DNA from: Spirogloea muscicola
Lineage: Eukaryota > Streptophyta > Zygnematophyceae > Spirogloeales > Spirogloeaceae
NCBI GenBank assembly: GCA_009602725.1
Contig: WELB01000137.1
Span: 222,823-286,822, forward strand
Direction of reading: 5' to 3'
DNA length: 64,000 nucleotides
The first letter of the stretch is position 1, and each line of letters opens with the position of its first letter. Both the position numbers and the translations under genes were made by a program. Under the pieces are notes generated by a model. It was not told the DNA's origin, made no database searches, and saw only the letters and a list, made by a program, of their open reading frames with translations. Positions 455 to 64,000 of this stretch are shown here, in pieces.

Positions 455-515
455 CATTCTTTTTGGGTTGGCTTTGCCAGCCCCTCTTCTCTATGGGCGA
501 GCTCTTCTCTATTTT
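455..515 (+). repeat. Family A hairpin element, short copy
   Basis: The hairpin is at 465-483 (GGGTTGG loop CCAGCCC). Upstream lies TGTCCATTCTTTTT and downstream ATGGGCGAGC, both family hallmarks. Confidence 0.65.
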
Positions 516-609
516 TGCAAGAGCTGTTTCTTGGAAGCGGCCAGGCAGCCGTTTGTTGCCCGACCTCCCGTGAGGCTTGTTGGCGAGGGGACCCACTTCC
601 AGGAGCCTA

Positions 610-785
610 GCATCTCTGATCTGCGGCTGCTTAGCAGGGGTTACTGAGTGATTCGTAGCTGCTTTGTTTCTGTGTATGCTTGTTTTTCTGAGCGCTTCCC
701 CTGGCCCCTTCTCATATCTTGTTCATTCTTTTTTGGGCTGGCTTTTCCAGCCCCTATCCTGAATGGGCGAGCACTTTCTTCTTGT
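610..785 (+). repeat. Family A hairpin element, long form
   Basis: This is one of the longest family A copies. A block containing CGGCTGCTTAGCAGGGGTTA is followed by a pyrimidine-rich stretch and then by the hairpin at 735-753, GGGCTGG-CTTTT-CCAGCCC, ending in an ATGGGCGAGCACTTTC tail. It matches 32646-32815 almost base for base along its whole length and matches 4915-5110 in inverted orientation. Confidence 0.8.
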
Positions 786-2029
786 TTGATGGCCGCTAGC
801 GACCACTGCTTAATAGTAACCTCTAGCGGCCACTAGCGACCACTGCTTAAGAGGCATCTCAGGAGGAGGCCATGGCTTTCCCACCTCCTTGATCTGGTCG
901 CTCTTCGCGCCATGTACTGCTTGTTGTTTTGGCCTCCCTCTCCATCCATGCGCAACGCGCGCCTTCTTACCCTCAAGAGCCCCCCTTCTGCTGGTGTTGC
1001 TCGCCCCACTCTGTCCAGCCTTGGGCTACACTCTTTTAGCCATCACGCCTTTCGGCCGAGTTCATGCTCTTTCCAACCTTTTGCTGCAGCCTCCGTCCTC
1101 CTCCCAGGCAGAAGCAACCAGGAGCCAGTGTGCCATCGATGCCCACTCTGCGTAAAACAAAGTTAAAAGTAGCCCACGGCGCAATCCGAGGTGGGGAGAA
1201 GCCTGGGGCTTGTGCTGGCTCGAGGCTTGTAGTCTCGCCCCTTGGACACCCTCTTCACCGGCTGGCTTTTCTTAGCCACAACCACCACCTTCTCTCTCCC
1301 TCTCTCACAAAGGATAGCTTCCCCACCGCCCTGGCATCGGTGGGAGAGCCACCACCTAGACGCGCAGAAGTCCTCAACGTCCAGACGAGAGAGAAGGAGC
1401 CCTTACAAAAGGATGCGATGGAACTTTGTACAGTCATTGGTGGGCTGGCTTTTCCCAGCCCCAGCCCCCTTTTGTAGGAGCTGCTTCCTCCTTCCGTTGG
1501 AAGGCCAGCCCATCAGGATTGTTGAGCAAGGTAGCGAAGGGCCACGGCGTCCCAGCACACTCCCGCCCGACGTCAGCGGGGCGCCGGCGCTGACGTCCTG
1601 CCAGCAGGCTTGCTGACGCCAGCGAGGCACTGCCTGGACAAGGGCTTTGCTCGGCGCCCGCCTGGACGGGAGCCCCAGATGGCCGTTACCGTTGAGGCGT
1701 TGCCGTCCACTCGGTGGTGGTGCCGAAACGGCAGGTCACCTTCGGGCATGTACACTGTAACTGCGCAGCAGTTACGGGCCGGGCCTGTTTTTATTGTTGG
1801 GGACCACTATCGGCCGAATAGAGAGAGAGAAGGCGCGCGGTGCGCATGAAAAGAAGAGGGTTGCCAATTCAAAGCTGTACCTTGGACAGGCAAAAGCTAG
1901 CTGCAGAAGAGGTCATTCATTCCCTCACTCCTTGCGGCTGTTGACTAGGGTCCCTGTTGGACTTACCCAGCCCCTACCTTCTGTGGGCGAGCAACTCCAC
2001 TTTCTTAGATCAGTCCTTGTTCTTACCAC

Positions 2030-2100
2030 GACAGTGTGCTGGCTTCGGGCTGGTTGTTCCAGCCCCTATTCTCAATGGGCGAGCACTTTCTTCTGCTGGC
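2030..2100 (+). repeat. Family A hairpin element
   Basis: The hairpin is at 2047-2065 (GGGCTGG loop CCAGCCC) and is followed by the usual ATGGGCGAGCACTTTCTTCT tail. A degenerate second copy of the tail lies at 1965-2000, and a fragment of family B follows at about 2112-2150. Confidence 0.65.
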
Positions 2101-2289
2101 TTGGCTTGGCCTCCCAACCCATACGCACCGCGCGCCTCCTTTTCAAGAACCCATTCGGAATAGTCAAACAGCTGCATAGCTGCTTGGTTTTAGCGCATGA
2201 CGGCCCCTTCAGAGCTTGTCCACTCCTTATGGACCCTCTGATTGTGAGGTAACCTTCCACAGCCATCGGCCATGGAAGAGCTTCTTTCT

Positions 2290-2372
2290 GTCTGAATAAT
2301 GTATTGGCTTAAATTGGCCTCCCTTTCATTGCATGAGCTCCGCGCGCCTTCTTTCTCTTTCTTATCCAGATT
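2290..2372 (+). repeat. Family B hairpin element
   Basis: The copy starts near CTGAATAATGTATTGGC and continues through the family B core to CGCGCGCCTTCTTTCTC. The inner GAATTG/CAATTC stem is partly lost here (AAATTG...CATTGC), so this is an older copy. Confidence 0.65.
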
Positions 2373-3019
2373 TGCGGCTACATACCATGGGGTTACAACT
2401 GAGTAGCCTCCCTTTATAGTCACTTCTTCTGCTGTGTTGCTAGCCTTCAGGTGTCGAACCTTCCCCTTAAGACCTTGACCATGCTTATTGGACTGGCCTT
2501 TCACAAAGACCGCCTCCTTAAAGAGCTTCTCCATGGATCAGCCACCTAAGTAGCCTTGAGTCAGTAGCCACGAGTGAGTGACGGGCAAATTCAGGTCTTT
2601 CTAGCAAGACATACGATACCAGAGCAATTAAATGGACGTGCATCTCAAGGCTATCGGAGGCCATTTTCTGTGACTTGCGCAAGAACCCTTCTCATAAAGC
2701 GGACCACCTGTGACCTGTCTTGATGCTAGCTTTGGCATTTTTTGGCATCAAAATGTTGAATGGTAGCTGGCTCTTCGTTCATGATGGATCGTCCGGTATG
2801 TAGGAGCATATGCAGAAACGAGAAAGTGGCACTGTACATAGAGCATGCTCACTTGTTGGTTTTCTCTCTGTGACTTGTAGTTGCTTGAGTAAGATCAATC
2901 TCCTCGCATGCAATCAAGCACCGCAGTCAGTTGAGATATTATGGTAAGGCCGAAGGAGCCACTTTGGCAAGATGCAGACGCTGTGGGTGGCCAGCCCAAA
3001 AAGGAGTCCTTGTCCTTCG

Positions 3020-3092
3020 TACTCCGGCTCCTTCAGACCTTGTCCATTCCTTTGGGCTGGCCTTTCCCAGCCACCTGTCAATCTGGCCGCGC
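3020..3092 (+). repeat. Family A hairpin element, subtype with GGCCGCGCTTCC tail
   Basis: The hairpin is at 3054-3072 (GGCTGG loop CCAGCC). It is flanked by CTTCAGACCTTGTCCATTCC on the left and a tail with CAATCTGGCCGCGCTTCC on the right. The same subtype recurs inverted at 58285-58345 and 63935-64000, and as a right half at 39330-39372, with only a few mismatches. Confidence 0.75.
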
Positions 3093-4029
3093 TTCCAAAA
3101 GGAATAGTGACAAGGGCTGAAAAGTACAGGTGCCAACAAGGAAGTACAGAAGGGGCAAATTTGGGCAGAAGTATCAGGAGCGACGCTCACTCAGCTGTCG
3201 AGCAGCTGCTGTGACGAGGGGGTTGTTGACCGATAGAAGGCTCCCATGAGAGTAGCGGCTGTGAGGAGCCAGCCATAAAGGAGGACAGAAGTTGGGCAAA
3301 GCCAGAAATAACACCCTCTTAGGGAGTCCAGCGGCTGCGGTGAGCTGGAAGCTCTGTGGAGATGGAAAGCACGATGAGGAGAATGGCTATCATAATAGTG
3401 TGGCTATGAGGAGCCAGCTAGACAAGAGCCGGAAATGTGGAATGAGTTCTCTGAGGAGGCCCAATCAGAGAAATTGGTGGTTCGCACTTCAGGTTTGGTA
3501 GCCCTTATAAGCAACCGCAAAGTGGACACGCTGACTGTACTGAAGACACATGGTTGTTCTGAGCAAACGGTGGCCCACTTGGGTCAGACTTCAGTGAGCA
3601 GCAGCAGCAGAAGGGTTCACTGGAGCCAAGGCGTCCTTCCATCGCCGGGCTGGTCGCGCCCTTGCAGCAGCCTCTGGTTTTGCGCAGCGGGGTTGCTCTT
3701 TCTCCCCTCAGCTCATCTGACTTCCTACTGCTGACACGGGGGTATTGAGGGCTGTCTGCCTAGCCTTTGGCTCCGTCATGAACACCTGTATGCATCTGGC
3801 TGGCAGTTTACAGCCGATTCTTTAATATCAGCAGCCGCATTCCTTCTAATAAGACTTGGTGTGATACCTAGGCCGCAGCTGAAGGTCGGACATACTGGCA
3901 GCAGGGGAGGAGGGAGACAGGCTTCTAAGCTCACAGCCACCGCCCCCTTAAGAACTATGCTTAGAGAGATGGTTTTCTTAGCCAACCGTCTCCTTGAGCA
4001 TGACCGTTATCCCGCCCCCGCTGTTCTTT

Positions 4030-4110
4030 CGGCCCCTTCGGACCTCGTCAATTCTTTTCGGGCTGGCTTTTTGCAGCCCTCAGCCCCTCCGGAAGAGTTC
4101 ACTTCTTGAG
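4030..4110 (+). repeat. Family A hairpin element
   Basis: The hairpin is at 4060-4079, with stem GGGCTG/CAGCCC and loop GCTTTTTG. The upstream flank carries GGCCCCTTCGGACCTCGTCA. A degenerate neighbour follows at about 4250-4310. Confidence 0.65.
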
Positions 4111-4499
4111 AGGGATGAGGTCCCCACAGGATATCGGCGACCTTCAGGCTGCCAGGTTTTCCAACTTGTGGCTGTTGACCAGTTACCAAGTGGCCATCCA
4201 TACGAGTTACTTGTGCTGCCATATTGCTATTACATGTTGGGGCTTCCCTTTGGACCCTGTCAATTCTCTTTCGGCTGGCTTTTCACGACCACAGCCTCCT
4301 TGGCAAGAGCTCACATTGGAACTGCTGGTCAATATCTGCTGCTGTTGACTTGACTTACTGGGTGACGACTCTGTTACAAATACTATTGAACCTGACGGGT
4401 TTGCATTCTGAGACGAGGGTGATGACAGGGACGGAAGAGAACGCGGAAGCATGAGGAAGAAGGCAGGAGAACAACGGGACCTTTCAGACAGATTTACGG

Positions 4500-4590
4500 C
4501 AATGGCTGTAAGAGGCCAGCCCAAAGCATGGACAAGGAAAGAGAAGATCTCCAAAGGGGCGATTGCTGTAAGGTGCCAGCCCACCAAAAT
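4500..4590 (-). repeat. Two inverted family A hairpins in tandem
   Basis: Two minus-strand hairpin cores, at about 4504-4522 and 4565-4582, share the GGCTGTAA...GCCAGCCC form and stand about 60 bases apart. Confidence 0.55.
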
Positions 4591-4784
4591 GAATTAGCCT
4601 AAAGTGAGTGGAAAGGGCCCAAAGCGCGAAGGAGCAGCTTCTCGTCGTTTCTCATGCAGAGCTTCCTCCCTTGGTGGAAAATGAGAGAAGGCGCTGTATG
4701 TGTAAAGAAAGAAAGGGTGGCCTATTTAAGCCAATAGACTGTTCAGGCAAGGATAAGTGCAAAAGTGGGGCTACATAAGCGTAA

Positions 4785-4880
4785 GCCCTATGCTAAGGTG
4801 GTTAGGCAATGGAGTGAGTATAAAGTGATGGAGGGCCTGTGTGGCAAAGTAAGAAGGCAAGCACATTGACAAACGGTGGC
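4785..4880 (-). repeat. LINE 3' tail fragment
   Basis: On the minus strand this reads as a diverged copy of the LINE tail seen best at 11430-11494 (GTGCTTGCCTT...ACTTTGCCAC...). It belongs to the variant tail that is also present near 35025. Confidence 0.45.
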
Positions 4881-4914
4881 TAAGGTAGCAGGGGAAATGG
4901 GGTGGGGGCAAAAG

Positions 4915-5110
4915 CCGGGGGGAGGAGCCCTGCAAGAAAAGGGCTTGCCCATCGAGGATAGGGGCTGGGAACAGCCAGCCCGACAAAGACTGAACAAAAT
5001 ACGAGAAGGGGCCAGGGGAAGCACTTAGAAAGACACAAGCACTAAGTAAAACTTAGCAGCTACGAAGCACTCCGTAACTCCTGCTAAGCAGCCTCAGGTC
5101 AGAAAGGAAG
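4915..5110 (-). repeat. Family A hairpin element, long form, inverted
   Basis: On the minus strand the copy runs from the CTGCTTAGCAGGAGTTAC block to the hairpin at 4962-4981 and the GGGCAAGCCC tail. It is collinear with 610-785 and 32646-32815. The edge at 5104-5125 adds a GAAGCGCGGCCAGATTGACT piece typical of the other subtype. Confidence 0.7.
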
Positions 5111-5149
5111 CGCGGCCAGATTGACTCAGGTCAGAGAAGCTGACGCCGG

Positions 5150-5245
5150 CGCGCGGGAGCCTCGGTTCGAACCCGCGACCGGATGTCAGGCCATCAGGTG
5201 AGCGCGGCTTCCCCAACGGCGCGCCACGTGTCGGTCAGCTGCCAC
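5150..5245 (-). repeat. tRNA-like (possible SINE head) sequence
   Basis: The minus strand holds a B-box-like GGGTTCGAACC. Roughly 50 bases upstream lies TGGCGCGCCGTTGG, which resembles a pol III A box, and a GACATCCGGTC piece resembles a long variable arm. The T stem does not pair and no acceptor stem is visible, so this is not an intact tRNA. A tRNA-derived SINE relic is the likeliest reading. Confidence 0.3.
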
Positions 5246-5645: not shown

Positions 5646-5774
5646 GCCTCGCTACCAGAGACTAGTTTCGCTGGCCTGCGGCTGCTCAATCGGGAATGTT
5701 AAGCGTCCAGCGGCCACCTGAGTCGCCGTGTGCTTTAGCGCTTTTGCCCTGGCCGCGCTTCCTTTGCTGGGCCC

Positions 5775-5970
5775 CTCGAACTATGTATTCACTCTTTTCC
5801 TGGGCTGGCCAATCACAGCCATCGCCCTCTACTGGAAAAGCTCGCCCATAGAAGAGAGGGGCTGGCAGAAGCCAGCCAAAAAAGAATGGACGCCCTCTAC
5901 TGGAAGAGTCTCCCTGTGAAGAATAAAGTGCTCGCCCATCGAGGATAGGGGCTGGAAAAGCCAGCCCAAA
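5775..5970. repeat. Cluster of three family A hairpins
   Basis: A plus-strand hairpin at 5802-5820 is followed by two minus-strand hairpins at 5858-5877 (GGCTGGC-AGAA-GCCAGCC) and 5948-5967. The opposed copies could let a transcript fold into a larger structure. Confidence 0.65.
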
Positions 5971-6185
5971 AAAGAATGGAAGAGTCTCCCTATCGCTCCT
6001 CCCTCGTAGCCATTGCCTTTCATTGGAAGAGCTGTTTCTTATTTTTCCCGCGCCTGACAGGAAAGCATATACCCGTCCCCAGTGGCAGGGTTGTTGGCCC
6101 CCGCCTACGCGGGGGCCCATGTGAAGCCACCCCCAATCTGAAGCTGCTACGTCCTCGTCCATAATTTTGTCAGCTTGCCATTCAT

Positions 6186-6250
6186 CAACGTATCGGCTTG
6201 AATTGGCCACCCACTCATTTCACGCGCACCGTGCACCTTCTTCCATCACA
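6186..6250 (+). repeat. Family B element, diverged copy
   Basis: It resembles the family B core (CGTATCGGCTTGAATTGGCC...) but the second stem half is altered and the CG-rich part reads CGCGCACCGTGC. Confidence 0.5.
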
Positions 6251-6722: not shown

Positions 6723-9700
6723 ATGGCCGCCGCGCCCCGCACGCCGTCCCTCTCGGCCGTCCGCCGGCCCGCCGGCATCGTGCCGGCCGCGGCGGCCACC
6801 ACAATTCTGCAGCTCCATGGCGCGCAGCACTCGGCGTTCCCTGGCCCACTGGAGTGCCAATTATTTGTCGAAATGTCGGCCATCGGCAGTGGGCCACGGC
6901 TCTGGTGGCAGTCACGAAGCCCTGTCCTGGGCAAGTATGGCAGCCATGCGAGCAGCAGCTGCAGCGTCAACCTCCGCCCCATGGCTGTCGGTTGCAGCGC
7001 CCACGGCAAGGCCAGCTGCAGCGGCGGGCTCCTGTCGAGGAGGCGAGGGGCTGCCGCAGCAGCGCCAAAGGCGGGCGCGGCCGCTGCGTGTGGCCCGACC
7101 AAGGGCCTGGATGCAAGCGACTCGGCCGCCGCTGCCATCTCCGCGGCCTCCGCTGCTCCTGGCAACCTGGAGCGGCTGATGCTGGAAGACGGCCCGGTCA
7201 TCGTGCGCGACGACCTCAGCCAGCTCCTGGAGGTGAGCAGCTCCCACTTTCCCCCCTTGGTCGCGCAGAGCAAGCATGAGCGGGCTGCGCTTCTCATCAT
7301 TTGCGGCTTACTTCTCGAGAGGAGGTAGCTCAACTACTATGACTTGTTACGACACACTTAGATGTGGATGTGCGTTGTGGCACCATGGACCCCTGCAACC
7401 AACGCTGCCGGGTAGTCTGTGTCATCCGTCACACATAGGCTCGTCTCAGTGCCAGGGCTCAGAGCTCCTGGCTGTTGGTACAATAGTACGTCTTGTGACC
7501 GTCTTGACTTTCCTCAATATGAGGGCCTTGCTGTTTCCAGTGATTAGCATTGGCAGTCAGTGGCCAGACTTACCCCGCTGTCTGCCAAGGACTCTTGCCG
7601 TCTGGCATGGGCTGAGAACCTGTAGCAGATTGTGATGTTCCCAGAAGGATCAACTGGGTAACTGCAAGCTCATATTGTGGGTCCTGCTGCAGTGCTTACC
7701 TGAGGTGCTGCGATTGAAGCTCCGCGAGCACCCTCGCCGCTCTGAGTTGCTCGAGGTGAGGCTGCCGCTGCCTTGCCGTCGTTAGCTTGCGGCAGCTGAT
7801 GTCTAGGGGACATGTGCGACTGCTGGCTTTGATTGGCTGAGCGCTGGGCAGCTCGACTGAGGGCCTGTGCACTCGATGCTGGCCTTGCCTCAGGTCGTCC
7901 TAGATCTCGGCCGGCGGCCGGAGGCGCGGTTCCTGGGCGACGGCGGCGGCGAGTACCTCAGCCAACACGAGGTTGATAGCTTCTAATGGCGCTTCTTCTG
8001 AATCTTTGCAACCCTTTCTGTCTATCTAGCTTGGAGGTAAAGGATCTATGGATGATTGCCAGCAGCAGCACCTCATTGTTTATGCAATGGTGTTGGGCGG
8101 TGGCGCAGGTCACGCGGGTCGACTTGGAAGCGGCACAAGAAGCTGTTGGCGAGTTTGGCGGTGATAATCGCGCAGGCGTGGAGGGCACTCTGCACCGCAT
8201 CTCTGGCATCCGCAACCGCAAGGGTCACATTGTGGGGCTGACGTGCCGTGTAGGCCGCGCCGTGACTGGCCATGTAGACATGATACGTGACGTCCTCACG
8301 CTAAACCAGAGCATTCTCTTCCTCGGCAGGCAAGCCCTCTTGTCAATATGTACTTCACGCTCCTTTGAGCCATAGACATTCTCCAAGTTGCCTCTTGAGG
8401 AAGTGGCAATTAGTGCTAGCAGCCGAATAGCAGGGCTGGGTGCTGCCTTTTTGTTACAGCAAGTTGTTGGGCTTTTGGGCTGCAGGCCAGGCGTCGGCAA
8501 GACTACAGTGATCCGTGAGATTGCGCGCGTGCTCTCTGATGAGCTCCACCGCCGCGTGGTGAGGCAATTGAGCCCTTTGTCTTTGTCCTCTGTCCCAATG
8601 TCGTGCTCTTCTGAGTCGCTGAGAGCTTCATTGCTGGCGCAGCCCATCATCATCAGTGTCAGTTAGTTGTGCATTGGGCTTGCTGTCACCTGCTCATACT
8701 GTAGCTTGCCTGCTCACACATGCTTCTGGGCTTGCAGGTCATTGTCGACACGAGCAACGAGATTGGTGGTGATGGGGACATCCCTCATCCAGCCATTGGT
8801 GGAGCTCGTCGCATGCAGGTGAGAAGCACGACTGCTTCGTGCCATACATGGACTCAAATCGCATTTGTGACCACAGCATTCAACTGTGGACCCAACAATT
8901 TGCGTTTCCAGTGCTACTTCAGAGTGACTCTTGGCGTACCCTGGCACAGGTTCCAGATCCAGCGATGCAACACCGCATCATGGTGGAGGCGGTGGAGAAC
9001 CACATGCCAGAGGTGGTGATTGTGGACGAGATTGGGACCGAGGCAGAAGCGCTGGCCTGTCGCACCATAGCCGAGCGCGGTGTCATGCTTGTCGGCACGG
9101 CCCATGGCCAGCTGCTGGAGAACCTGATCAAGAACCCAACTCTCTGTGACCTGGTGCTCCGCTATGACTTATTGATGTGCTCAGCGTGCTGAACCTCTGC
9201 ACTACACAGTCACGGAAATTGCAGTCACGGCAATCGATCCTTGGGAGCAAGCTCATCGGCAGTGGGGACGGTGTGCTGCACGGGGCAGGTCGGGGGCATA
9301 CAGACAGTGACGCTTGGCGACGACGAGGCCCGGGCGCGCGGCACGCAGAAGAGCGTGCTGGAGCGCAAGGCGCCCCCCACATTCCCGCTGCTCATTGAGA
9401 TGCGGGAGCGAAACTACTGGGTATCTCACCAGGTGGGATCTTGCACTTAAAAGCCATAATAAGAAGCCATTATCAGGGTGCTCGCCAGGATTGCTGTAGG
9501 CACTCTAGACAGAAGGCATGTCATTTGTTACGGAAATTGTGTTGTGGCAACCTGTGCTGGCAGACTGATAGGAGCGTCGACACGCTGCTGTATGGCAAGA
9601 GGCCCTATGTTGAGGTGAGGGCCAAGCTGGGCATGCCCTGCCTTTGTGCTGCCCATCCCAGGCAGTCGTACAGGCACGCCATGGTTGTGCGACAGACAAT

Positions 9701-11239: not shown

Positions 11240-11494
11240 CTCTTCCCTCAAGCCCTCTTTTGCGTGCTCAGCGTGCTCAGGCTAGTGCCTTGCACCAGAA
11301 AGCTGGGCGAGCTCTAGTTGGTGGCAGAAGGGCTCAATTACTGGCATCTAGTATTCATGCATCGATTAGTACTTTATTTTTTGACCCGTGGTTATTGAGC
11401 GGGTCAATCTGCTGTAGGTTATGTAGATCTTTAGATGTGCTTGCCTTTGTACTTGGCCATTTGGCCTACATTTGTTTCTAATATACGGAATTTT
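11240..11494 (+). mobile_element. LINE, 5'-truncated copy (3' end)
   Basis: The copy starts inside the last coding part of the element, with residues ASALHQKAGRALVGGRRA readable. It passes the hairpin TTGACCCG...CGGGTCAA (about 11377-11403) and ends in the tail GGCCATTTGGCCTACATTTG and ATATACGGAATTTT. It shares this end with the copies near 33568, 35440, 37545 and 39030 but has a different 5' cut, as expected for a LINE. Confidence 0.65.
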
Positions 11495-11568: not shown

Positions 11569-11644
11569 TGGTACCTGCGTGGTCTGCGCTTCCAGCCCCT
11601 TCAACTTGTCTATTTTTCTTAAAAAACATTTCTTCAACTTTGTT

Positions 11645-11700
11645 GATGCCTGCTGGGCTGGCCTTTCACAGCCATCGCACTCTTGTGGAAGAGTTTCTCC
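11645..11700 (+). repeat. Family A hairpin element
   Basis: The hairpin is at 11655-11673 (GGCTG, loop GCCTTTCA, CAGCC), followed by the ATCGCACTCTTGTGGAAGAG tail. It closes a LINE-B-A composite just upstream of the prolidase gene. Confidence 0.6.
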
Positions 11701-32379: not shown

Positions 32380-32645
32380 ACCCAGTAGCCACTTGAGTCG
32401 CTGTGTGCTCTGGCACTTTTCTGGCCCCTTTAATTTTGTTCATTCTCTATACATCTCTCTATAATAAGGCAAAGCTGTGTGCCTTCTGGCCCTTCAGACC
32501 CTTGCCCACTGTTACTGAGATGTCTTTTTACAGCCTTTGCCCCCTTTAGCAGAGCTTGGTTCTAGAACAGGCGGATGCTCAACAAGAGACGTTCAGCTCC
32601 AGTGGCCACTTGAGACGCTGTGCGCTTAAGCGCTTTTCTGGCGTC

Positions 32646-32815
32646 TCTGACCTGAGGCTGCTTAGCAGGGGTTACCGAGTGATCTGTAGCTGCTCTGTTT
32701 CTTTGTGTGCTTGTTTTTCTTAGCGCTTCCCCTGGCCCCCTTCTCGTCCTTGGTTAATTCTTTTTGGGCTGGCTTTTCCAGCCGATATTCTCAATGGGCG
32801 AGCACTTTCTTTTCT
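32646..32815 (+). repeat. Family A hairpin element, long form
   Basis: It is collinear with 610-785: the CTGCTTAGCAGGGGTTACCG block, a CT-rich middle, a hairpin at 32766-32783 and an ATGGGCGAGCACTTTCTT tail. It is followed at 32845-32890 by a second hairpin (32865-32883) of the GGGCTGGCCAAT type. Confidence 0.75.
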
Positions 32816-33003
32816 GGCCCCTTGGAGTTGCTGGCCCCTTCGAGCTCTGTTCGATCTTTCAGCTGGGCTGGCCAATCGCAGCCGTCACACCCTCTGCGGA
32901 AAAGGAAGAGCTTGCTTATGGAGGGAAGGAGGTGGAGCTGCTTCCGGGGATCTCCTGAAGCAGCGGAGGGGGCCCCACCAGCTGTGTCCGGAGGCACGCG
33001 CCG

Positions 33004-33129: not shown

Positions 33130-33399
33130 CCAGTGGCGGCCACACTTGGCAGGCGCTGATCCCCCAGCGTACCTTGGCCCCCCCTCCGCTCTCTGAAAAA
33201 GTTCTCTGAAAAGTTACTTGAAAGAGCTATTTCGGTAGTACATGGCGTAAACCCCGAGGCTGTTCTGACATTGGGCGTCGGCAGTGTGCACAGCAGCGTC
33301 GGTTTTGCGATCTCAGTGTACAAGTCCGGTGATGTGTCAATAGCTTGCTTGGCAGGCAAAGCAGCAAGAAGACGGCCTTGATGAAAGACGAGAGACCCT

Positions 33400-33440
33400 T
33401 CCAGTAAAGGGCGAATGGCTGTGATTGGCCAGCCCAGGGA
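33400..33440 (-). repeat. Family A hairpin, inverted
   Basis: The core at 33418-33435 reads GGCTGTGATTGGCCAGCCC on the plus strand. This is the GCCAAT loop subtype, as at 5802 and 32865. Confidence 0.55.
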
Positions 33441-33567
33441 AAACGACAAAGGTTTGAAGGGGCTAGAGGTTTACGGACGACGAGCCTTCCACTTGTTGAC
33501 AAAGTTGCGAGCAGTGCTGGGGGAGCTCCAACTCCAACTGCTTCTGCGGCATGATGTCCTCCTTCTG

Positions 33568-33634: not shown

Positions 33635-34424
33635 GTTGGGGGGAATGACATGGGGTGCTTTGAGTAAGTCATTGTGAAGTGCCTCGTGCTGCAGATGGGA
33701 GTTCGATAAAGACAGCAACGTACATTGGGTTCGAGGGATTCAACTCATGACCGAAGGAAGGGCTGATAGTTGCAGCTATGATCAGCTTATAGATCGTGCC
33801 CAAAGTGGACACTGTACGTGGTTGCCTTGATAGTCATGCATACAGTTGAGAAAGAGCTGCGTTGCATAGGATCTCTTGCACTCAATGTGCAGAGGGCATC
33901 TGGTGATTCCAAACACTCTGTCAGTACCACCGATCTGCAGTCCATTGAGGGCGCCACTGGGCGTACCTCTGTACTTTTCTCGGACCCAATGAACCATCCT
34001 GAGATGTTTTCAAAGGTATAACTCTTCAGTGCCGTCTGGCACAAATTCAATGATGGAAAGACGATGTATCAACAGAAGCGTTGATGACCCGTCCTGAGTC
34101 CAAATCCTTACACTAAGCAGAATGCAACCTGGCTGCAACAAGAAAGTGTTCTCAGTATGATCGAGACCTTGATCAAATGGACTCGATTGTAGTCCAGATG
34201 TAGTCAATCAAAGTCCAGATGTACTCAAATCTATGTATAGATGTAGCAAGACAGGTGCCAGAGCTTAGCCCCATCAACATCTAAGTCACTAATTCCCACA
34301 AGAGAAGAGTCCTCTCGGCCCAGTACAAGGTGATGCGGCAAGATGCAATCTACTCAATGCAATGAAACAAGCGCGAGAAAGTCCGCAATGCCCTCTCTGA
34401 AGAGTCTCACGCAGTCTCTGGCCC

Positions 34425-34505
34425 CCTTCTCGTTCTTTGTTCATTCTTTTTTGGGCTGGCTTGTCCAGCCCCTATCCTCAATGGGCGAGCCCTTTCTTCT
34501 CACGC
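34425..34505 (+). repeat. Family A hairpin element
   Basis: The hairpin is at 34453-34471 (GGGCTGG, loop CTTGT, CCAGCCC). The flanks TTTGTTCATTCTTTTTT and ATGGGCGAGCCCTTTCTTCT match the copy at 721-785. Confidence 0.75.
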
Positions 34506-34530
34506 AGCACCGTGTGACAGCGCTGCTGAG

Positions 34531-35949: not shown

Positions 35950-36030
35950 GGCCCCTTCGTACCTTGTCAATCAATCTGTCGGGCTGGCTTTTCACAGCCC
36001 TCGCCCCCTTTGGATGAGCCTACTTCTCAG
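35950..36030 (+). repeat. Family A hairpin element
   Basis: The hairpin is at 35981-36000 (GGGCTG, loop GCTTTTCA, CAGCCC), with GGCCCCTTCGTACCTTGTCA upstream and CTCGCCCCCTTTGGATGAGC downstream. Confidence 0.7.
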
Positions 36031-37029: not shown

Positions 37030-37090
37030 CTCCAACTTGCATCACCCGGGGATCGAACCCGGGAGCAGCACTCCGGTTCTCCGGTGTTCT
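37030..37090 (-). repeat. tRNA T-arm-like sequence
   Basis: On the minus strand CCCGGG-TTCGATC-CCCGGG (37045-37063) forms a perfect T-arm-like hairpin with a B-box. No matching acceptor stem or D-arm was found, so this is at most a tRNA-derived fragment. Confidence 0.3.
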
Positions 37091-37544: not shown

Positions 37545-38830
37545 GGCAAACAAGAAGATTCCGTGTTTTAGAAACTAATGTAGGCCAACTGGCCAAGTAC
37601 TAAGGCAAGCACATCTAAAGATCTACATGACTACAGCAGATTGACCCCGCTAAATAATCACGGGTCAAAACATAATGGTCACTATTCAATGCGTGAATTC
37701 TAGATGCCAGAAACGGAGCCCTTCTGCCACCAACTAGAGCTAGCCCAGCTTTCTGGTGCAAGGCACTAGCCTGAGCACGCTGCAAACAGGCCGAAACTCG
37801 TCGTCGCAAGAGCGACAGATATGCAGCTGGCAAGCCCATCTCAGCCGGAAGCACATCTGCACGTCGAGTGTAGCCTAGACTGGCAATGTTTTGAAGGAGT
37901 GTGGAAACGAGGACCCAAACAGCCAAAGATGTGCCGCTGGCAGGAGCTGATCGCATTGGGGGTAATCGGAGTAGTGCCGCAGTTTTCTTTGTTCTGCACC
38001 GCCCACTGCATGCCCAGCGATGTGTGTCGATGCTGGGCCTTTATATGCCTCCGTAACAACAACGTCGACCAGGGCCCGTGGTCCTCCAGCAGGTTGCACG
38101 CCCACAATGTCAAAGTGTGCGGCGATGATGACGTCCCTGGGCGTCCGTGGTGATAGGCATGATATTGTTGACTTCCACGACCGCACGGTAGCCGGCGTCG
38201 CGCATCAAGCCCGCCAGGGCGTCGCGAAGGAGATTATGAATGCCCACCACTTCTGGTCCAGTGGGCCATCTCAGCATGTGAGTGGCGAGCACAACACCCT
38301 CTGCACGGAAGCCGCACTCGCACTGGCGCACCCCAATCAGGCAGTTAGGTGGGAGGCCGAGAAAGAGTTGAAGCGATGTCCAAAAGGCCTCGGAGCTGAT
38401 GCTGAAAGCGTTGGCGACGGAGGGAGAGGTGATCCAGTCAGTGGCACCAGGTGTGGCCAGAGAAGTAAGTCTTGCCAAGCTCCTTGGATTCTTCTGAATC
38501 TCTGGCAGCCTCCTCAACCTTCTGCGGCGTTCGTCTTTCACTGCCGTAACCAGTCCGGATGGTGCCCCTCTATCAGAAGCTTGGGCGAGGGCGGAGAATA
38601 GCGTGTGTAGAGGTTGGAGAGAGGGGAAAGAGCTGATGGCTGAGTCGCGGATGCTCCCCAGATCCGCTTGGAAGGGGAAGGAGCCTTCCTCCACATTGCG
38701 TACAGGGTCGTGGAGGCAAGGGAAGCGCATGGGGAGCAGGGAGGCGATCTGGTGCCAGCAGCCCAGGAAGGCTGCTTGCGCCGTCTGCTCCAACGACCGC
38801 AAACAGGGCGCTCCTAGCGCTCCTAGTTAG
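37545..38830 (-). mobile_element. LINE (non-LTR retroelement) C-terminal coding remnant and 3' end
   Basis: This is the longest copy of the LINE in the window. On the minus strand it encodes parts typical of the C-terminal region of algal non-LTR retroelement proteins: AAFLGCWHQIASLLPMRF, LGLPPNCLIGVRQCECG, HNLLRDALAGLMRDAGYR, ALVDVVVTEAYKGPASTH and RKLRHYSDYP. The shared end ALHQKAGLALVGGRRA, the TTGACC...GGTCAA hairpin and the common tail follow. The coding region is not continuous and the reverse-transcriptase core is absent, so the copy is dead. Family naming rests on remembered patterns, not a search. Confidence 0.5.
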
Positions 38831-38935: not shown

Positions 38936-39029
38936 CAGCAGTGGGTCCAATGAGCCGACGTGGGGGTGAGGAGAGGGAGGACATTCCTTTTTTGGGCTGG
39001 CATTGTATTATGCAGCCATCGCCTTAACT

Positions 39030-39320
39030 CGGAAGAATTTCGTGTATTTGAAACAAACGTAGGCCAAATGGCCGAGTAAAAAGGCAAGCACATCTGAAGA
39101 ACTACATATGCTACAGCAGATTGACCCGCTCAGTGACCACGGGTCAAAGCATAAAGGTCACTAATCGATGCATGAATACTAGATGCCAGAAACGAAGCCC
39201 TTGAGCCCGAGCCTGAGCCCGAGCTCGAGCCCGAAGCCTCTGCCACCAACTGGATCTCGCCCAGCTTTTTGGTGCGAAGCACAAAACTCGGAGGACACTA
39301 CTTGCTTTGCTTGATGTGTT
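39030..39320 (-). mobile_element. LINE, 5'-truncated copy with GAGCCC expansion
   Basis: The copy has the same tail (GTTTGTTTCAAATACACG) and hairpin (TTGACCCG...CGGGTCAA, 39120-39146) as the other copies. Its coding end is interrupted by a GAGCCC/GAGCTC-type microsatellite at about 39205-39236. Confidence 0.6.
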
Positions 39321-57808: not shown

Positions 57809-58883
57809 GCCGGCGAGGCCGCTGGAGCTCCGGGCTCGCAGAGGATGTGGAGGAGCCCCGCAGCGACGCCTCCTTCGAGAGTACCGGCGACGGCGCTCGC
57901 GCCAGGCGCCGCCGCCTCGGGTGACCTGCGACGACGGCGCTCGCGGCGCGCGAGGAGCGGGAGGCAGCTGCTCGCTCGCGAGGCCCGGGCNGACAGCGAC
58001 GGCGGCGGCGGCGGCGGCGGCGGCGGCTGCGGCGGCGGCGGAAGCGGGCGCTGCCACTGGAAGGCACTGACGGGGAAGGTGTCGTGGCGGGCTCACGGTG
58101 GCCTCCACGTGGCAGGCCCTTCGGGATGGGCCCGACGGGACGACCGGCGGACGACGGTGGCAGACCTGCGTCGTTTTCGAGCCCATCGTGAACGACTGCG
58201 GGGGGAATGTGGGAAAGCTGGGGAAGCTGGGGCGGAGGTGCGTGCTTACCGGTTTGTACATTCCTGTAGGCTGGCTTCACAGGAAGCGCTTTCAGATTGA
58301 CTGGTGGCTGGGAAAGGCCAGCCCAAAGGAGTGGACAAGGCTCTTCTCTGCCATTGCCTTACATGGGGAGACCTGCTTCGACTTGTTGCTGCTATTTGTG
58401 GGTCTCGTCGGGGTGCCTCTTTTCCAATTGCAAGGTACTCTGACTTGCGGCTGCTGACTCGGGGTTACTGAGATCCATCCCCTGTAGTCCCTTGCATAGC
58501 TGTGTCTTTGCTTGCACTGCAAGCTGCAAGTGACTCACCAACATGACCCCCAGGCGCCGTGAGGTGCCCACACACTGGCCTCCCAGGGGAGCGACTGGAG
58601 GCATACGGTATGCCCGGGAAGATGCCATTTCCTGTGCCCCGACGGAGCTGCACCCTCACAGTTAGTAATAGGGCTGAGTTTCGCTTCACTTCACGAAGTA
58701 CTTGGATGCTGGGCAAGGATTTGCCCCTGCTTCACATTGAAGTGCGTGCACAGCAAGGCTGCACGGCCCGCAAATAAGCAAGCACTCAACTACAATCGAT
58801 GTTGAGCTTATTTTGCTACTACAGCTAAAGATGACAATATGTGACCGTCATAGTGTTCAGCGCTAATGTGCTGGCTGGCGTGT
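57809..58883. other. Spacer between two minus-strand genes
   Basis: 57809-58200 is the GC-rich upstream region of the At5g03900-like gene, with a (GGC)n run at about 58005-58045 and an N at 57991. 58285-58345 holds a family A copy. The rest is probably the aldolase 3' flank. Confidence 0.5.
58285..58345 (-). repeat. Family A hairpin element, subtype with CAATCTG tail
   Basis: The inverted copy has its hairpin at 58306-58324 (GGCTGG loop CCAGCC) and AAAGGAGTGGACAAGG at the edge. It is close in sequence to 3020-3092 and 63935-64000. Confidence 0.7.
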
Positions 58884-61800
58884 CTACTTGCCAACACCTC
58901 CAAGGCGGAGGGCCTGGAGGATGCGGCCCCCGCCAGGAGAAGGGTGAGGACCATCATACTTGCCCAGCTGCACGAAAACACGAAACGAGGCCATATTCAG
59001 ACAGTAATAGTTACTGACTACCAACTAGAGAAGCACTAGGAGGAGATGGTCTTGATCAAGTGGTACTGCACTGTAAACAGTGAACCGAGGTTATTCTGTG
59101 GGGAATGCAAACCTGGGCTTCAGAGTTGGCCTTTGCTAGTGCTACGAGCCGAGTCTGAGCTGCTTCTCGATTTTCCTCCTACTCCAATAGAATCCCAATG
59201 TCATGTGTTGTTAAGAATCAGTACGCATATAGAGCAAGCAATGGCAAGCAAGCAATAGCAACAGCAAGGACACATAGCAAGCAAGCAATAGCAACAATAT
59301 GTTACCACTATTAAGTGCCATGATGATGCTCCTTGGCCAGAGATGTGGGTACATATCTCTCACAGAGTACATGAACCCGTGCAGCGCTGTGAATGCATGC
59401 ATGTAGGAGTTACTCTTACCTTGCCAGCCCAGATTTTCAGTGTGCTTGATTGAAGCGCGCGTCCATAAGAGAATGTGAGGGCCCATGGTTGCGGACCAAA
59501 TGCCTGGAGTGTCAATGCATGTGTGCAGTAATCAGAAAAAGTGGCAGTCGCCTATTCATGACCATGACCAGCCGTGCATGACCAGCAAAGTAGACAGACA
59601 GGTATGTGTCCACTTGCTCTGCTCACCTGCAGTGCATTTAGATTGAGTGTTGCTTCCTCTTCGCTCATCCCGCCCGATAAAAAGTGAATGCCTGCAGGCA
59701 CACATAAGAGCATCGTCTTATCAAGCAAGAAGGAATATTTTGCTTGTACAGAAGTAGGCAGGGCAAATAACTCCATCACTTTGATCCTGCTTGTGTGATG
59801 CATGTACCAGGCACAGCAGCAGGAACTGATCGCCTCATTGTTCGGACGGTGTAAGCTGCAACTTCTTGTGGTGGAGGAGTCGGGACATCAAGGCCTGCAA
59901 GGGGCTCAGAGACAACACATCTGAGTACTCTTGACGAGTGGACAATGTGGATATCCTCCCTTCTCTTCATCACACAGGTGCGGCATCACTAGGCAGGAGC
60001 ACGTCAACCACAATGCACCTGGCAAGATCATGTTGGGCTTGAGCAAGATCCCCTCCAGCATGACACTGCAAAGAGCGGATAGCTGAGGGTGTGAGCAATC
60101 TCTTCAACATTGGTTTGATACTCTTGTTACACGAACCGAATATCCTTGCATGGTTGGTGGATTAAGAACTAGCACAAGACTCCAGGATGCATGTATGATA
60201 GGGTTCCAAGTGCTTTAGCAAGCAACTGACACTTTTGACAATACAAGCAGATCATTGGCGCTTGTCATACTTGTACTCGTTCAGTAGCCGAAAAACATGG
60301 GAGTTGACCATCTCAGACACATAAGCCGTCCTCTCAATGCTGTGAACAGAGCAGCAAAACACATGATTACTAACAAGTTTACCTGTGGATAAGAAGTCCA
60401 CGTTTGAACGTGCAGACCTTGATACATGCTGCATGAGCCAGTAGAGCTAACTACTTGGGTGTATAGGCAGAACCTGTAGTCGCCATCACCAAGAGTCACT
60501 TCTGGCTCCACTATTGGCACAAGGCCATTGGCCTGCCACAAACACACCATGGTGACCAGATTAACACTGAGACCACTACCCTGTAGGGCAAGTCTTGGAC
60601 TGCAGATCACTTGCCAGCAGGTTGTCAGTGCAAGCTCTTACAGACAGCTGTCATTGACCCAGCAAGCTCAGAGGGCTGCCAATATCAGCCTGTGACTGCC
60701 TTGGCCATGACTTGATGAGAAAAAGGAAGGGGTTGACGGGGGAGTAGGGGTGGTGGGCGTTCTTCGGTCGGGGCAACACAGCAGCACAAACAGACCTGGC
60801 AAATGAGAGCGTAGCGAGCCAGCCCATGGCAGTTTTCCACAACTGCAACGGATGAGGGGCAAGTGCTTGCGTCCACCTTGATGACAGCTCGCCACTTGGC
60901 AAACCTGGCCCCTTGCTGATAATACCTGCTCCCAGAAGGCTACAGTTGGAGGTATGGTGCTTCAAGGGGGACAATCTCATACGCAGTGCAGCATCTCTTT
61001 GATGTCAAAGCCCATTGCCTTGTACGCACCTCTTGCAACGATCAGCGAGGCCGTCAAGGCCCTGGGTAGCTGTCTCCCCATCAGTGCCGTCAATTGGCTG
61101 CAGCCCTGTGTCAACCTTTATACCTGGGACAATTCCTTGCTCCTTCAGAATGTCCACAAACGGTTTGCCTTCACGCGACAACTGGAAGAGTGTCTCGTCG
61201 AACATGATTACGCCGCTTATGTACTGCAGCCACCAGCAATGTCATTAGCCTCTTGATGTGATCTCAGGCGGTGGCTACTAAGGTGGCTAGAAAGTGAGAT
61301 ATGCCTATCACCCTACCGCTTCAACTTTGCTTGAGCAGCTTCAAGAAGGACTCTGAATATATCTAAGCTGATGACAGCTATGAGCCATGCACGCACGATC
61401 TGAACCTCATGAAAAGCTTGGACTGTAAATGCACGTGTGTTTTCATGCTTTTTCCAAAGGCAGAGTTGAAGCAACAGCTCATCAGTTTCCATCTTCTGCA
61501 GAATTACAATGAGGACATTGCTGGCCACGTCCAAATGGCAGTAGCAGCCTCCGGATCTGCAGTTAGTGCAGATTACATACATTCCCAAGGCCAGGCGCGC
61601 TGTACAGAAGATCTCTCCAATTCCGTCGATTTTCCTCGGTGTTGTCAACTCCAACTGAGGCGAGCCTGCTTGGAGAACCAATACAGCTAGTCATCTCATC
61701 CATCACCAAGGGTTGCTGCTATTATAGCCTTGCAAGGCCATTCAGCACATGACGGAGTGGTGATTGCAATGCAGCATGCCAACTTTTGGCAATCAGCTGC

Positions 61801-61980
61801 TCTCATCGAGTCAGCATTGGCAGATCAACCCACAGCTTGGACAGGGCGTGCGCACCTCTTGCCGGTGGTGGCATTGCTCTCGTCGGAGGCAAGTATGCCC
61901 TTGCCGGCCTGGCAGATGTACGCGGCTGTGCACTTGAGCTCGTCGGCGTAGGGGTTGGTGCGCTCGAAGTCGGAGGTCAT
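58884..61980 (-). CDS. FBA: Class I fructose-bisphosphate aldolase
   Basis: The enzyme cleaves fructose-1,6-bisphosphate, or joins trioses, in glycolysis or the Calvin cycle. Twelve exons in phase give 364 residues: 61856-61980, 61581-61665, 61030-61223, 60796-60925, 60474-60532, 60271-60339, 60019-60065, 59808-59894, 59627-59691, 59420-59503, 59113-59178, 58884-58967. Catalytic residues are visible: Asp33 (ILASDES), Lys145 (RFAKWRAV), Glu187 (IVEPE) and the Schiff-base Lys230 (EGILLKPN). [19 protein letters not shown] and [18 protein letters not shown] are family blocks. [10 protein letters not shown] and [14 protein letters not shown] resemble plastid isoforms. The frame is open upstream to an ATG at 62124, which could add a short presequence. 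The C-terminus ends LRLGGVGK and lacks the usual terminal Tyr. Confidence 0.95.
59215..59290. repeat. Short AGCAAGCAATAGCAAC repeats in an aldolase intron
   Basis: Several imperfect copies of AGCAAGCAATAGCAAC lie next to each other. They lie downstream of aldolase exon 10, in the intron before exon 11. Confidence 0.5.
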
Positions 61981-62589
61981 GACGATGGCACCCCCCTGCC
62001 CCGCTCGCTGGCGGTGCCGCCACACCGCGCGGCTGTGAGTCGGCCTGCGCGCGGCGCCGCCATTGGATCCGAAGAACGCCGACGCCGGCAGCGAAGGGGT
62101 CTCCTGCTGTCCTGTTGACAGCACGCGAGCAGGAACAAGAGCTCACGTTGAGTGGCAAACCGAGTGCCATTAGATATGAGACGCATCAATCTGTGGCTGC
62201 TGCTGCGTAATGCAGCCGCGATGCAGAAGATCCGTGATCTGAGGCGCCGTCGACGGCAAGCGCGGCTGGCGTCTACGCCAGCATCGACAGCGCGTACTAC
62301 AGCTGGGGAGGCCGCGTGAGACGGCCGCCAATGTGGTGCCGCACGGCGCCACAAGAGCAGCCATCACTGCGACGGCTGGTGGTCTGCCAATGCCGCTTTG
62401 CCGTCTCTTCCGCGGAGGCCGACAGCGTCCAAGGCCGCGGCGGCGATGGCGGCGGCGGCGGCGTTAGGCGGGTGCTGGCCACGAGCCTCACGACAGCTCC
62501 GTCCGCGGGGTCCGGCGGCTGTCGGTGGCATCCGGGCAATTCCAAGGCAGTTCTCCGACAGCTAAACACAGCCCTTCGTAGTTTGGCCC

Positions 62590-62660
62590 TTCGACCCTTG
62601 TCATTTCTTAGTTCGGGCTGGCTTTCAACAGCCCTTGCCCCCAATGGGGAGAGCCAGTTT
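62590..62660 (+). repeat. Family A hairpin element
   Basis: The hairpin is at 62615-62634 (GGGCTG, loop GCTTTCAA, CAGCCC), with GGCCCTTCGACCCTTGTCAT upstream. Confidence 0.65.
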
Positions 62661-62744
62661 TTCTAAACACAGCGGGCTGCATGAGGAGCTGTCGGCGACG
62701 CGGTGCGCATGAGACGAAAGGAGCAACGACGCTTCCAGGAGAGG

Positions 62745-62885
62745 GCGGTGGCTGTGAAAGAGAATGAGCTCGCCCATAGAAGAGAGGGGCTGGCAGAAGC
62801 CAGCCAAAAAAGAATGGACAAAATCCAAAGAGCTACAGGAGAATCACTCAGTAACCTCTGCTAAGCAGCCGCAGGTCGGAGATGC
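62745..62885 (-). repeat. Family A hairpin element, long form, inverted
   Basis: On the minus strand this reads the CTGCTTAGCAGAGGTTACTG block and the hairpin at 62787-62805 (GGCTGGC-AGAA-GCCAGCC), which is the same hairpin as at 5858-5877. A family B fragment (62698-62722) lies just outside. Confidence 0.7.
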
Positions 62886-63224
62886 TAGGCTCGTTGAAGT
62901 GGGTCCCCTGGCCAGAGCCAGAGGCAGCAGCGAGGGCTCTGCCGGCACGAAGGTGCAACGCCGGGGCCATAGACCTCTGCAGCGAGACGGCCAGGCGCAT
63001 TCGATACACTTGCGCCAGCGACCCGACTGCAGGAAAGTCGACCGGCTCCCCATGGAAGCGACGGGCGATGGTGTGGCGGGCTCACTCAATGGGACGCCAG
63101 ATCAACCCACTACACCCCATTTTCCGCCCTCCGGTCATCCTGATCAGCACTTTGGTGACTAGAGGTTATTGAGCGCCCACTCGCAGTAGTCATAAAGGGT
63201 GGATTCATGCTTTTTGCACAAAAC

Positions 63225-63400
63225 GAAATTACGAAGCTACGAATCACTCAGGAACCCCTGCTAAGCAACCGCAGGTCAGAGTCTTCTTTTCCCGCCTATT
63301 GGCCCTTTCAGACCTTGTACATGTCCTCCGGGCTGGCCTCTCACAGCCATTGCCGTGAGCTTGAAGAGCTGTTTCTTCAGGCTCAATAAGAGAACGGGAC
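63225..63400. repeat. Family A fragments in both orientations
   Basis: An inverted CCTGCTAAGCAACCGCAGG block (about 63233-63280) is followed by a plus-strand hairpin at 63330-63348 with CAGACCTTGTACATGTCC upstream. Confidence 0.6.
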
Positions 63401-63774
63401 AAGGTAAGACGCTGAGCTCACTCCAAGGCATTTGAGCTCTTCCAAAGAAGGTGGGGGCAATGAAAGTTAGCTCAGCCCAAGGGAGCGAGGGCTGTGAGCG
63501 GCGGCTAGTCTTTCTGACTTGCGGCTGCTAACAAGAGGTTGCTAGATGATCATCCTACGTGGTACCTGCTTAGCTGTAGAGGTAGAAAGCCAGCCCAGAA
63601 TAACCAGAGGGAAGAGTTTCCCAGCACTAAAGGGCGATGGACAAGGTTCAGAGGGCAGAATGGCGCAAAAATGACACAGCTATGCAAGAGACTAAAGCGA
63701 ACGGAAGCCTAGTAAGCCCGAGTCCGCAGCCGCAATTCAGAGATGAATGAATAAATGAAAGAGCTCTTCCAGTG

Positions 63775-63920
63775 TAAAGTAATGGCTGTGAAAGATCAGC
63801 CCAGGAATGTACAAAGTCCAACAAGAAACAGCTCTTCCAGAGGGCTATGAAGTAAGCGTATCCAAATGGGCCGAGGGCTGTGAAAAGCCAGCCCGAACAG
63901 AATGGACAAGGTCCGAAGGG
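63775..63920 (-). repeat. Two inverted family A hairpins
   Basis: The cores are at 63784-63801 and 63875-63894 (GGGCTG, loop TGAAAAGC, CAGCCC). The second is followed by AGAATGGACAAGGTCCGAAG, the inverse of the usual left flank. Confidence 0.65.
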
Positions 63921-63934
63921 GCCGGAAAGGAAGA

Positions 63935-64000
63935 AAGCGCGGCCAGATTGACTAGTGGCTGGGAAAGGCCAGCCCAAAGGAGTGGACAAGGTCTGAAGGA
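63935..64000 (-). repeat. Family A hairpin element at the right edge
   Basis: The hairpin is at 63957-63975. It differs from the reverse complement of 3020-3092 at only about five of 64 positions and is cut off by the window end. Confidence 0.75.

Follow-up and report, generated by a model that had tools for sequence, protein, structure and literature searches.

The 64,000-nt stretch of the Spirogloea muscicola genome analysed here (the window; C137:222823-286822, in an assembly of 153,112,186 bases and 471 contigs) carries many short repeats, each built around a hairpin of nearly constant stem and changing loop, and it raises the question of what kind of element these repeats represent. The original prediction, made from the letters of the stretch, described a large family of elements without obvious coding capacity or target-site duplications, suggested a role at the RNA level, and could name no standard class for them. 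The evidence presented below makes it most probable that the repeats are the 3′ ends of a superfamily of R2-like long interspersed elements (LINEs) with a restriction-like endonuclease (RLE), which insert at many places and use the hairpin as an RNA tag. They are new family members of an already known kind of LINE; what is unusual is that stem constancy and loop variation extend over several families, and that an R2-like RLE element inserts at scattered places.

Copies of the hairpin are far more frequent than chance in both window and genome, in agreement with the proposed large family. Ten matches to the strict pattern GGGCTG-N0..16-CAGCCC lie in the window, where 0.31 would be expected, and none of 100 shuffles attains that number; the relaxed pattern GGCTG-N4..14-CAGCC gives 64 matches over both strands, palindromic places being counted twice, against a mean of 6.9 and a maximum of 12 in 20 runs of a Markov-1 background. 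Two flanking words are enriched when up to two changes are allowed (GACCTTGTCCATTC, 11 in the window vs. 0.35 by chance; ATGGGCGAGCACTTTC, 6 vs. 0), and a third, the exact word GGAAGAGC, reaches only 10 against 3.35 by chance (maximum 8). A nucleotide profile, built from five typed seeds in three iterations, found 30 copies in the window, on both strands and spanning positions 439 to 64000 (at least 25 had been claimed), and 246 in the 315 kb of window and fetched loci, or 228 once duplicates were removed. Copy density outside the window is biased, because many loci were chosen for carrying a hairpin copy or a reverse transcriptase (RT). Across the genome, the pattern GGGCTGG-N3..9-CAGCC was matched 18,974 times on one strand and 18,913 times on the other, compared with 30 and 26 for its reversed form, used as a control; as symmetrical hairpins count on both strands, this corresponds to at least about 19,000 sites. 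An exact 19-mer from one window copy is present 1,954 times (control 0), and the family D form of the hairpin, described below, 1,162 times (control 0). A 167-nt query around 703-772 returned 3,089 first-look candidates, and among the 40 scored the best other copies were 92–95% identical. In a separate search, D copies were up to 100% identical to the query used there, over 144 nt.

The copies fall into six groups with a common stem and position (families A, E, C, D, B and B2). The stem is common to all six whereas the loop and the 3′ flank differ among them, so the description of a conserved stem with a variable loop holds. The commonest loops among the 228 copies are CTTTT, TTGTT, CCTTTC, CTTTG, CCTCTCA, CTTGT and CTTTTCA (51 of the 228 were not parsed). 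The 3′ tails track the family: ATGGGCGAGC accompanies A and E, GGAAGAG accompanies B and B2, C ends in GGGAGAGCC and D in GGCCGCGC. Shared flanks, as originally predicted, are therefore present but not uniform. The hairpin lies about 20–30 nt before a pyrimidine-rich 3′ end, within a 3′ untranslated region (UTR). The longer new stem that had been reported is also present (38995-39017), but it belongs to a single diverged copy outside the 30 profile matches: the window contains no further match even when 3 mismatches are allowed, and 82 loci contain no exact match.

When 30 fetched loci, the window being one, were placed side by side, they agreed up to about GGGCGAGCACTTTCTTCT at the 3′ end and departed from the common sequence on the 5′ side at many different points. 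Upstream, the common sequence is an open reading frame (ORF) ending in ...SISDLRLLSRGY-stop. This end is conserved (LLxRGY-stop), and in families A, D and E the hairpin is found mostly at one distance 3′ of the stop. The peptide pattern [LIV]L[STNA]R[GD][YDH]-stop, sought up to 350 nt upstream of each hairpin copy, was present in 37 of 62 A copies, at 73–75 nt in 24 of those 37; the controls (reverse strand upstream, downstream, and reverse strand downstream of each copy) gave 5, 12 and 6. For E the count was 15 of 21 (controls 3, 4, 2) and for D 5 of 14 (1, 0, 1). By these counts and controls, and those given below for the other families, A, E and D are securely linked to the ORF, and C, B and B2 weakly. 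Within the window, a 33-letter ORF-end motif beat all 100 shuffles upstream of 10 of the 29 testable copies, one of the 10 sharing its motif with a neighbour. The last 76 residues of the ORF gave 17,455 first-look candidates in the genome; all 150 that were scored are 95–100% identical, and several of them sit in stop-to-stop frames of 1,271–1,403 codons. In two loci, L073 and L074, the frame between stops is 1,328 codons long (in L074, 1,320 aa when read from a GTG), with 1,266 aa in common at 99.8% and DNA that is 99.9% identical over 3.9 kb. They begin to match at the same base, before which the frames enter unlike flanks; this base is a candidate for the true 5′ end of the element. The protein end of family D (pieces of L075) is 54–67% identical to that of A and terminates in DLHLLTRGY. 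Hairpins beside RT loci are few, a count that is not interpretable since flanks of 1.5 kb need not reach the 3′ end. Although no coding capacity had been obvious, longer copies of the same elements carry open frames. As a separate observation, each of the full-length A copies in L073 and L074 is preceded on its own strand by a family A 3′ end with loop CTTGT, which lies about 340 and 40 nt, respectively, ahead of the start of the match. These two 3′ ends are 97.7% identical over about 125 nt, and the arrangement may reflect nested insertion or a head-to-tail preference.

The 1,320-aa ORF matches Pfam RVT_1 (8.2e-16), and a search of PDB sequences returned three R2 sequences (6.9e-7 to 1e-6) as the only matches with E below 0.1, the next being one zinc finger at 0.76. 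No Pfam family of apurinic/apyrimidinic endonucleases (APE) matched this ORF at E up to 1. Two finger-like motifs can be seen by eye in the one long frame (Pfam C2H2 finger matches are sub-threshold, best E 0.09). There is also a CEC...H..RC motif, the spacing of which differs from the CCHC knuckle CX2-3CX7-8HX4C given in the available part of PMC5678591. The same partial text lists KX2KY as a motif of RLE LINEs; in a C-terminal alignment of 11 pieces, which come from families A and D and from a sister family of greater age, KELKY and KERKY fit this motif and the older sister family has KLRHY. The better part of an AlphaFold2 model of the C-terminus is ordered H-E-E-E-H-E (helix-strand-strand-strand-helix-strand), and the top seven PDB matches of this model in Foldseek are R2 proteins (E 2.6e-4 to 7e-3). 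This low-confidence fold matches the endonuclease region of R2, and together with the KX2KY motif it points to an RLE at the C-terminus; we take the ORF, judging from its sequence, to encode an R2-like RLE LINE protein with an RT of the R2 type.

The copies themselves resemble products of target-primed reverse transcription (TPRT), having a common 3′ end, graded 5′ truncation and some duplications. A search with the last 1,500 nt found 136 distinct A copies, of which 98 come within 25 nt of the 3′ end and 5 begin at the 5′ start of the query; for D, 37 of 65 reach the 3′ end and 4 the 5′ start. The starts occupy 39 (A) and 24 (D) different 10-nt bins. A junction set was made of 75 A copies, picked because they reach GAGC, and 25 D copies, with a swapped control. 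The A copies start 47 to 3,915 nt before GAGC (3,915 being the limit of the query), 60 of the 75 within 278 nt and 20 within 98 nt; the D copies start 47–1,101 nt upstream. Shared words of at least 9 nt across the junction were found in 11 of 75 A copies, compared with a mean of 2.8 and a maximum of 6 in the swapped control. Convincing duplications are one of 21 nt in locus L021 and TCTCACGCAG, which stands on both sides of a hairpin-only copy in the window, so that target-site duplications do exist at some copies, where none had been obvious. After GGCCGCGC of family D (n = 35), positions 3–6 are 91–97% pyrimidine, with C and T mixed, and the composition is near background by position 9–10. 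The flanks of A (60 of the 75) and D (25) copies differ from one another; 28S itself was not compared. The repeats that fitted no standard class are accordingly 3′ ends of R2-like LINEs, and the hairpins are carried by a transposon, close to the very outcome that the original prediction had named as counting against it.

Several results weigh against reading the repeats as tagged 3′ ends of dispersed R2-like LINEs, beginning with the copies and the protein. Among the A copies, 38 of 136 fall short of the 3′ end, as do 28 of the 65 D copies; many of them stop about 120 (A) or 97–110 (D) nt before it, near the stop codon, and these are probably related families with another 3′ UTR. Target-site duplications are found in a minority of copies, at least 3 of 7 A words of 9 nt or more (among 60 of the 75 rows) are repeat letters, and the shared words of D (2 of 25, against 0.36 and a maximum of 2) are not clearly above the control. 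In the junction zone, element end and target are inseparable. The C-terminal profile had no match among PDB sequences, the AlphaFold2 model is of low confidence (mean pLDDT 51.8, pTM 0.48), and its Foldseek TM-scores to R2 are 0.24–0.31.

To the same side belong the thin ties of three families to the ORF, the end of which was found upstream of 6 of 29 C copies (controls 0, 3, 3), 3 of 14 B copies (0, 0, 2) and 2 of 9 B2 copies (1, 1, 2). For C the link to the ORF depends on a single good copy, in L012, with LRLLTRSY-stop, and for B on a single decayed one; no B2 copy has clear ORF remains. Such scarcity would suit short interspersed elements (SINEs) or other non-autonomous elements with a borrowed LINE tail, and the available part of PMC3747384 describes shared tails in the green lineage, both in plant L1s and in Chlamydomonas, where SINEX families bear RandI tails. 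For B, B2 and C such an origin is nevertheless rather unlikely: the ORF remains in the C and B copies just mentioned stand at the expected place, age and 5′ truncation account equally well for a missing ORF end, and the sole candidate head searched, at 5125-5245, has 1 other partial match in the genome. This tRNA-like stretch (- strand) has letters resembling A and B boxes, the B-box-like word being GGGTTCGAACC, and is immediately followed by a fragment of a D tail and a copy of family A. ARAGORN found no tRNA at 5125-5245, and as the other genomic match covers query positions 1-90 of 119 at 86% identity, a tRNA-headed SINE was rejected for this candidate. A second B-box-like word, GGGTTCGATCCCCGGG, occurs at 37050 (-).

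The remaining adverse points concern the fold. Once 46 duplicates, 36 matches that do not cover the whole span and 1 match at an edge are removed, the 246 profile matches leave 163 distinct full-span copies, from which 75 were picked for spread over the families. Compensatory change was found in 0 of 7 stem pairs (0 cells) of these 75 copies. Pairing holds in 85.0% of the cells of the 7-pair stem; this compares with 36.8–63.8% when the stem is slid by 1–3 columns, but is not above the 85.2% of shuffles that keep the column make-up (3′ letters redealt). The central pairs hardly vary, and RNAalifold retains 3 pairs only. In the absence of compensatory change, the predicted need for the fold is not shown, and it is the sequence that is conserved. 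In its predicted fold the 3′ end of A surpasses 199 of 200 shuffles (z −4.2), the two flanks of the original prediction forming an outer helix; the 3′ ends of C, D and B fold no better than shuffles (z −0.55 to −0.73). The arms of this outer helix, GTYCATT/AATGGGC, beat shuffles in A and E; C, D, B and B2 are not clearly above them, and no claim is made for the helix.

Within families, letters have changed at 85 of 2,083 stem, 98 of 993 loop and 590 of 5,339 flank positions, sums in which the E reference has GGGTTGG and detection by the hairpin profile favours intact stems. The expected slower change of the stem than of the loop is seen in A, C, B and B2 but reversed in E and D. In copies found by a hairpin-free anchor, the rates for A (53 copies) were 3.0% in the stem, 13.0% in the loop and 6.9 and 7.8% in the flanks, and for D (26 copies) 7.0, 7.5, and 13.0 and 13.1%. 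These rates indicate that the stem is kept as sequence, which fits a recognition element and is no proof of a fold. It might be argued from the lack of covariation, and from the D stem being no better kept than the loop, that the repeats are LINE 3′ ends in which the hairpin is simply inherited 3′ UTR sequence, acting in 3′-end formation or stability or having no role. This is unlikely given a stem common to six families whose loops and 3′ flanks differ, and given the A copies found without the hairpin, in which the stem has changed least. Moreover, known elements need 3′ UTR structure: in the available sections of PMC10499050, R2Bm initiates TPRT solely on RNAs that contain its 3′ UTR, a 43-nt core being as good as the whole, and in those of PMC4176376, zebrafish ZfL2 needs a 3′ stem-loop with specificity in the loop, R2 being counted as stringent too. 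By analogy, the element's enzyme probably recognises its own RNA through the hairpin, and the RNA-level role first proposed for it is to that extent probable. That the hairpin is instead an independent short element (the arm of a DNA transposon, a miniature inverted-repeat transposable element or cruciform DNA) is highly improbable, for although it is a short inverted repeat in thousands of copies and 20 of 75 A copies begin so near GAGC, one end is common and the other graded, ORF ends lie at one main distance, and no second fixed end was noticed, no dedicated search for terminal inverted repeats having been made.

UnaL2, ZfL2 and L1 are LINEs of the APE type. The present elements share with UnaL2, ZfL2 and plant L1 a hairpin near the 3′ end, where recognition by the RT is presumed or shown as far as the accessible texts go. 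In the plant L1 hairpin (Ohshima; PMC3747384, in part), compensatory stem changes accompany a conserved loop, whereas here the stem sequence is kept and the loop varies. With R2 and the other RLE LINEs (CRE, R2, R4, NeSL, HERO) the elements have in common one long ORF, finger-like motifs, an RT, a putative RLE with KX2KY, a structured 3′ UTR as candidate RNA tag and marks of TPRT; R2 proteins are their PDB relatives. Unlike R2, which is specific for one 28S site in the ribosomal DNA, they occur at many places with a pyrimidine-rich junction. HERO includes many non-specific elements according to the available portion of PMC4640811; dispersed insertion therefore has a precedent, and a HERO-like clade is possible. 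RLE-bearing LINEs are also present in green algae, namely Dualen/RandI in Chlamydomonas and relatives (PMC8226300, in part), but Dualen has both APE and RLE (PMC4640811, in part), unlike the present ORF with its lack of an APE match. The Rfam model R2_retro_el (RF00524) gave 0 matches in the genome and none in control genomes either, so this is no proof of absence; it was likewise missing from L074 6740-6920 at E up to 10, where two chance-level matches appeared, and the Rfam comparison of the window gave nothing at gathering score. In literature near algal RLE-LINE 3′ hairpins no description of the present hairpin was noticed, which is not proof of absence. The copies in the window are listed in Table 1.

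Table 1. Hairpin copies, ORF remains and duplications in the window. All hairpin copies except the one at 38995..39017 were found by the hairpin profile, whether or not the remarks say "profile".
Position	Strand	Feature	Remarks
439..502	+	LINE 3′ end, family E, stem GGGTTGG/CCAGCCC	= L009:1335-1385; profile
	+	ORF-end-like motif (22/33) 72 nt upstream of family E copy 439..502	motif score
585..644	+	family A ORF end, aa 1301-1320, 95% identity, just before next 3′ UTR	
703..772	+	LINE 3′ end, family A; ORF end upstream (32/33 motif letters)	
1418..1481	+	diverged hairpin copy; best-scoring family is C (weak)	= L009:2312-2364
2024..2084	+	loop TTGTT; letters place the copy in family A	profile
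2202..2281	+	diverged copy, B2-like (weak)	profile
2463..2522	+	diverged copy, family unclear; ORF-end-like motif (21/33) 61 nt upstream	
3026..3092	+	LINE 3′ end, family D	profile
3240..3307	-	weak diverged copy, 18.0 bits	profile
4031..4097	+	LINE 3′ end, family C; ORF-end-like motif (22/33) 279 nt upstream	
4241..4310	+	diverged copy, C-like (margin 1.0)	profile
4491..4549	-	family B2 copy	profile
4943..5013	-	LINE 3′ end, family A; ORF end upstream (30/33 motif letters)	
5769..5841	+	family B LINE 3′ end, preceded by a decayed ORF end (LRLLNREC-stop)	
5840..5897	-	family E copy, GGCTGG-CTTCTG-CCAGCC	profile
5930..5986	-	family A copy	profile
11629..11693	+	family B copy	profile
32488..32555	+	diverged C-like copy; ORF-end-like motif (22/33) 108 nt upstream	
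32734..32803	+	LINE 3′ end, family A; ORF end upstream	profile
32633-32642 / 32809-32818		possible 10-nt target-site duplication CTTTTCTGGC	of copy 32734..32803
32833..32910	+	family B copy	profile
33396..33464	-	family B copy	profile
34418..34497	+	family A copy with the hairpin only; distance from start to GAGC 73 nt	10-nt duplication on both sides
34405..34414 (left), 34498..34507 (right)	+	target-site duplication TCTCACGCAG	flanks copy 34418..34497
35950..36019	+	family C copy	profile
37932..38823	-	old ORF fragment, sister LINE F	two pieces, aa 925-1225 of family A protein, 35-42% identity
38840..38907	+	diverged B-like copy (margin 3.5)	profile
38995..39017	+	single diverged hairpin of the original prediction	missed by profile
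58286..58343	-	family D copy	profile
62584..62654	+	family C copy	profile
62768..62833	-	LINE 3′ end, family E, directly after A/E-type ORF end	
62851..63081	-	LINE ORF C-terminal 77 aa, 96% identity to family A protein	upstream of hairpin 62768-62833
63301..63369	+	family B2 copy	profile
63763..63826	-	family B2 copy (margin 1.5)	profile
63856..63923	-	family C copy	profile
63937..64000	-	family D copy, cut by window end	profile

Other repeats share the window with these copies. A sister LINE family, F, is found at 11450 and 33580 (+) and at 39057, 37578 and 35463 (-); it has the ORF end YVLTRGY-stop (L082), and its 3′ hairpin, which lies about 25-30 nt from the 3′ end, is a different one, GTACTTGGCCATTTGGCCTAC. 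There are 22 distinct copies in window and loci, and the RNA fold is no better than shuffles (z −0.61). Repeat G (2308, 5589, 6197, 11518 and 37188, all +) consists of TTGAATTGGCCTCCCTTTCAATTCATGCGCCCCGCGCGCC followed by a pyrimidine tract, with a GAATTG/CAATTC stem and 24 distinct copies in window and loci (z −1.76); it is possibly another LINE 3′ end, with no tie to an ORF. Ten further loci (L039-L048) have near-identical RVT_1 scores and open frames of 1,172–1,237 codons, and apparently represent a further type of LINE that has been active recently. At 8109-8561 (+) there are host exons that encode a P-loop, their weak best matches including a stage III sporulation AA-like NTPase. No Pfam match at E 0.001 was obtained for ten long ORFs of the window, and two host exons had weak P-loop matches only.

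In the mechanism proposed here, a full element would have a single long ORF, encoding finger-like motifs, an RT and a C-terminal RLE, followed by a short 3′ UTR that contains the hairpin. The element's own protein would bind the hairpin and thereby choose its RNA, the enzyme would nick a pyrimidine tract, and cDNA synthesis would be primed from the purine-rich strand against the U/C-rich RNA end. Reverse transcription would usually end early, leaving copies that hold little beyond the hairpin. Since the stem is shared by six families, their enzymes may also mobilise each other's RNAs and hairpin-only copies, and a fuller version can be put forward tentatively, in which a dispersed, recently active superfamily of R2-like RLE LINEs has a common 3′ tag in the shared stem, a loop of its own in each family, and cross-mobilisation between them. 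If this were true, the tag and the pyrimidine-rich end would replace the site-specific addressing of R2, the tag being the counterpart of the 43-nt R2 tag. Without the link to LINEs, most of the copies would pass as unknown short repeats; if the hairpin is indeed a tag, they would provide a natural series of RNAs, constant in stem and variable in loop, for the study of R2-type RNA choice without a fixed genomic site.

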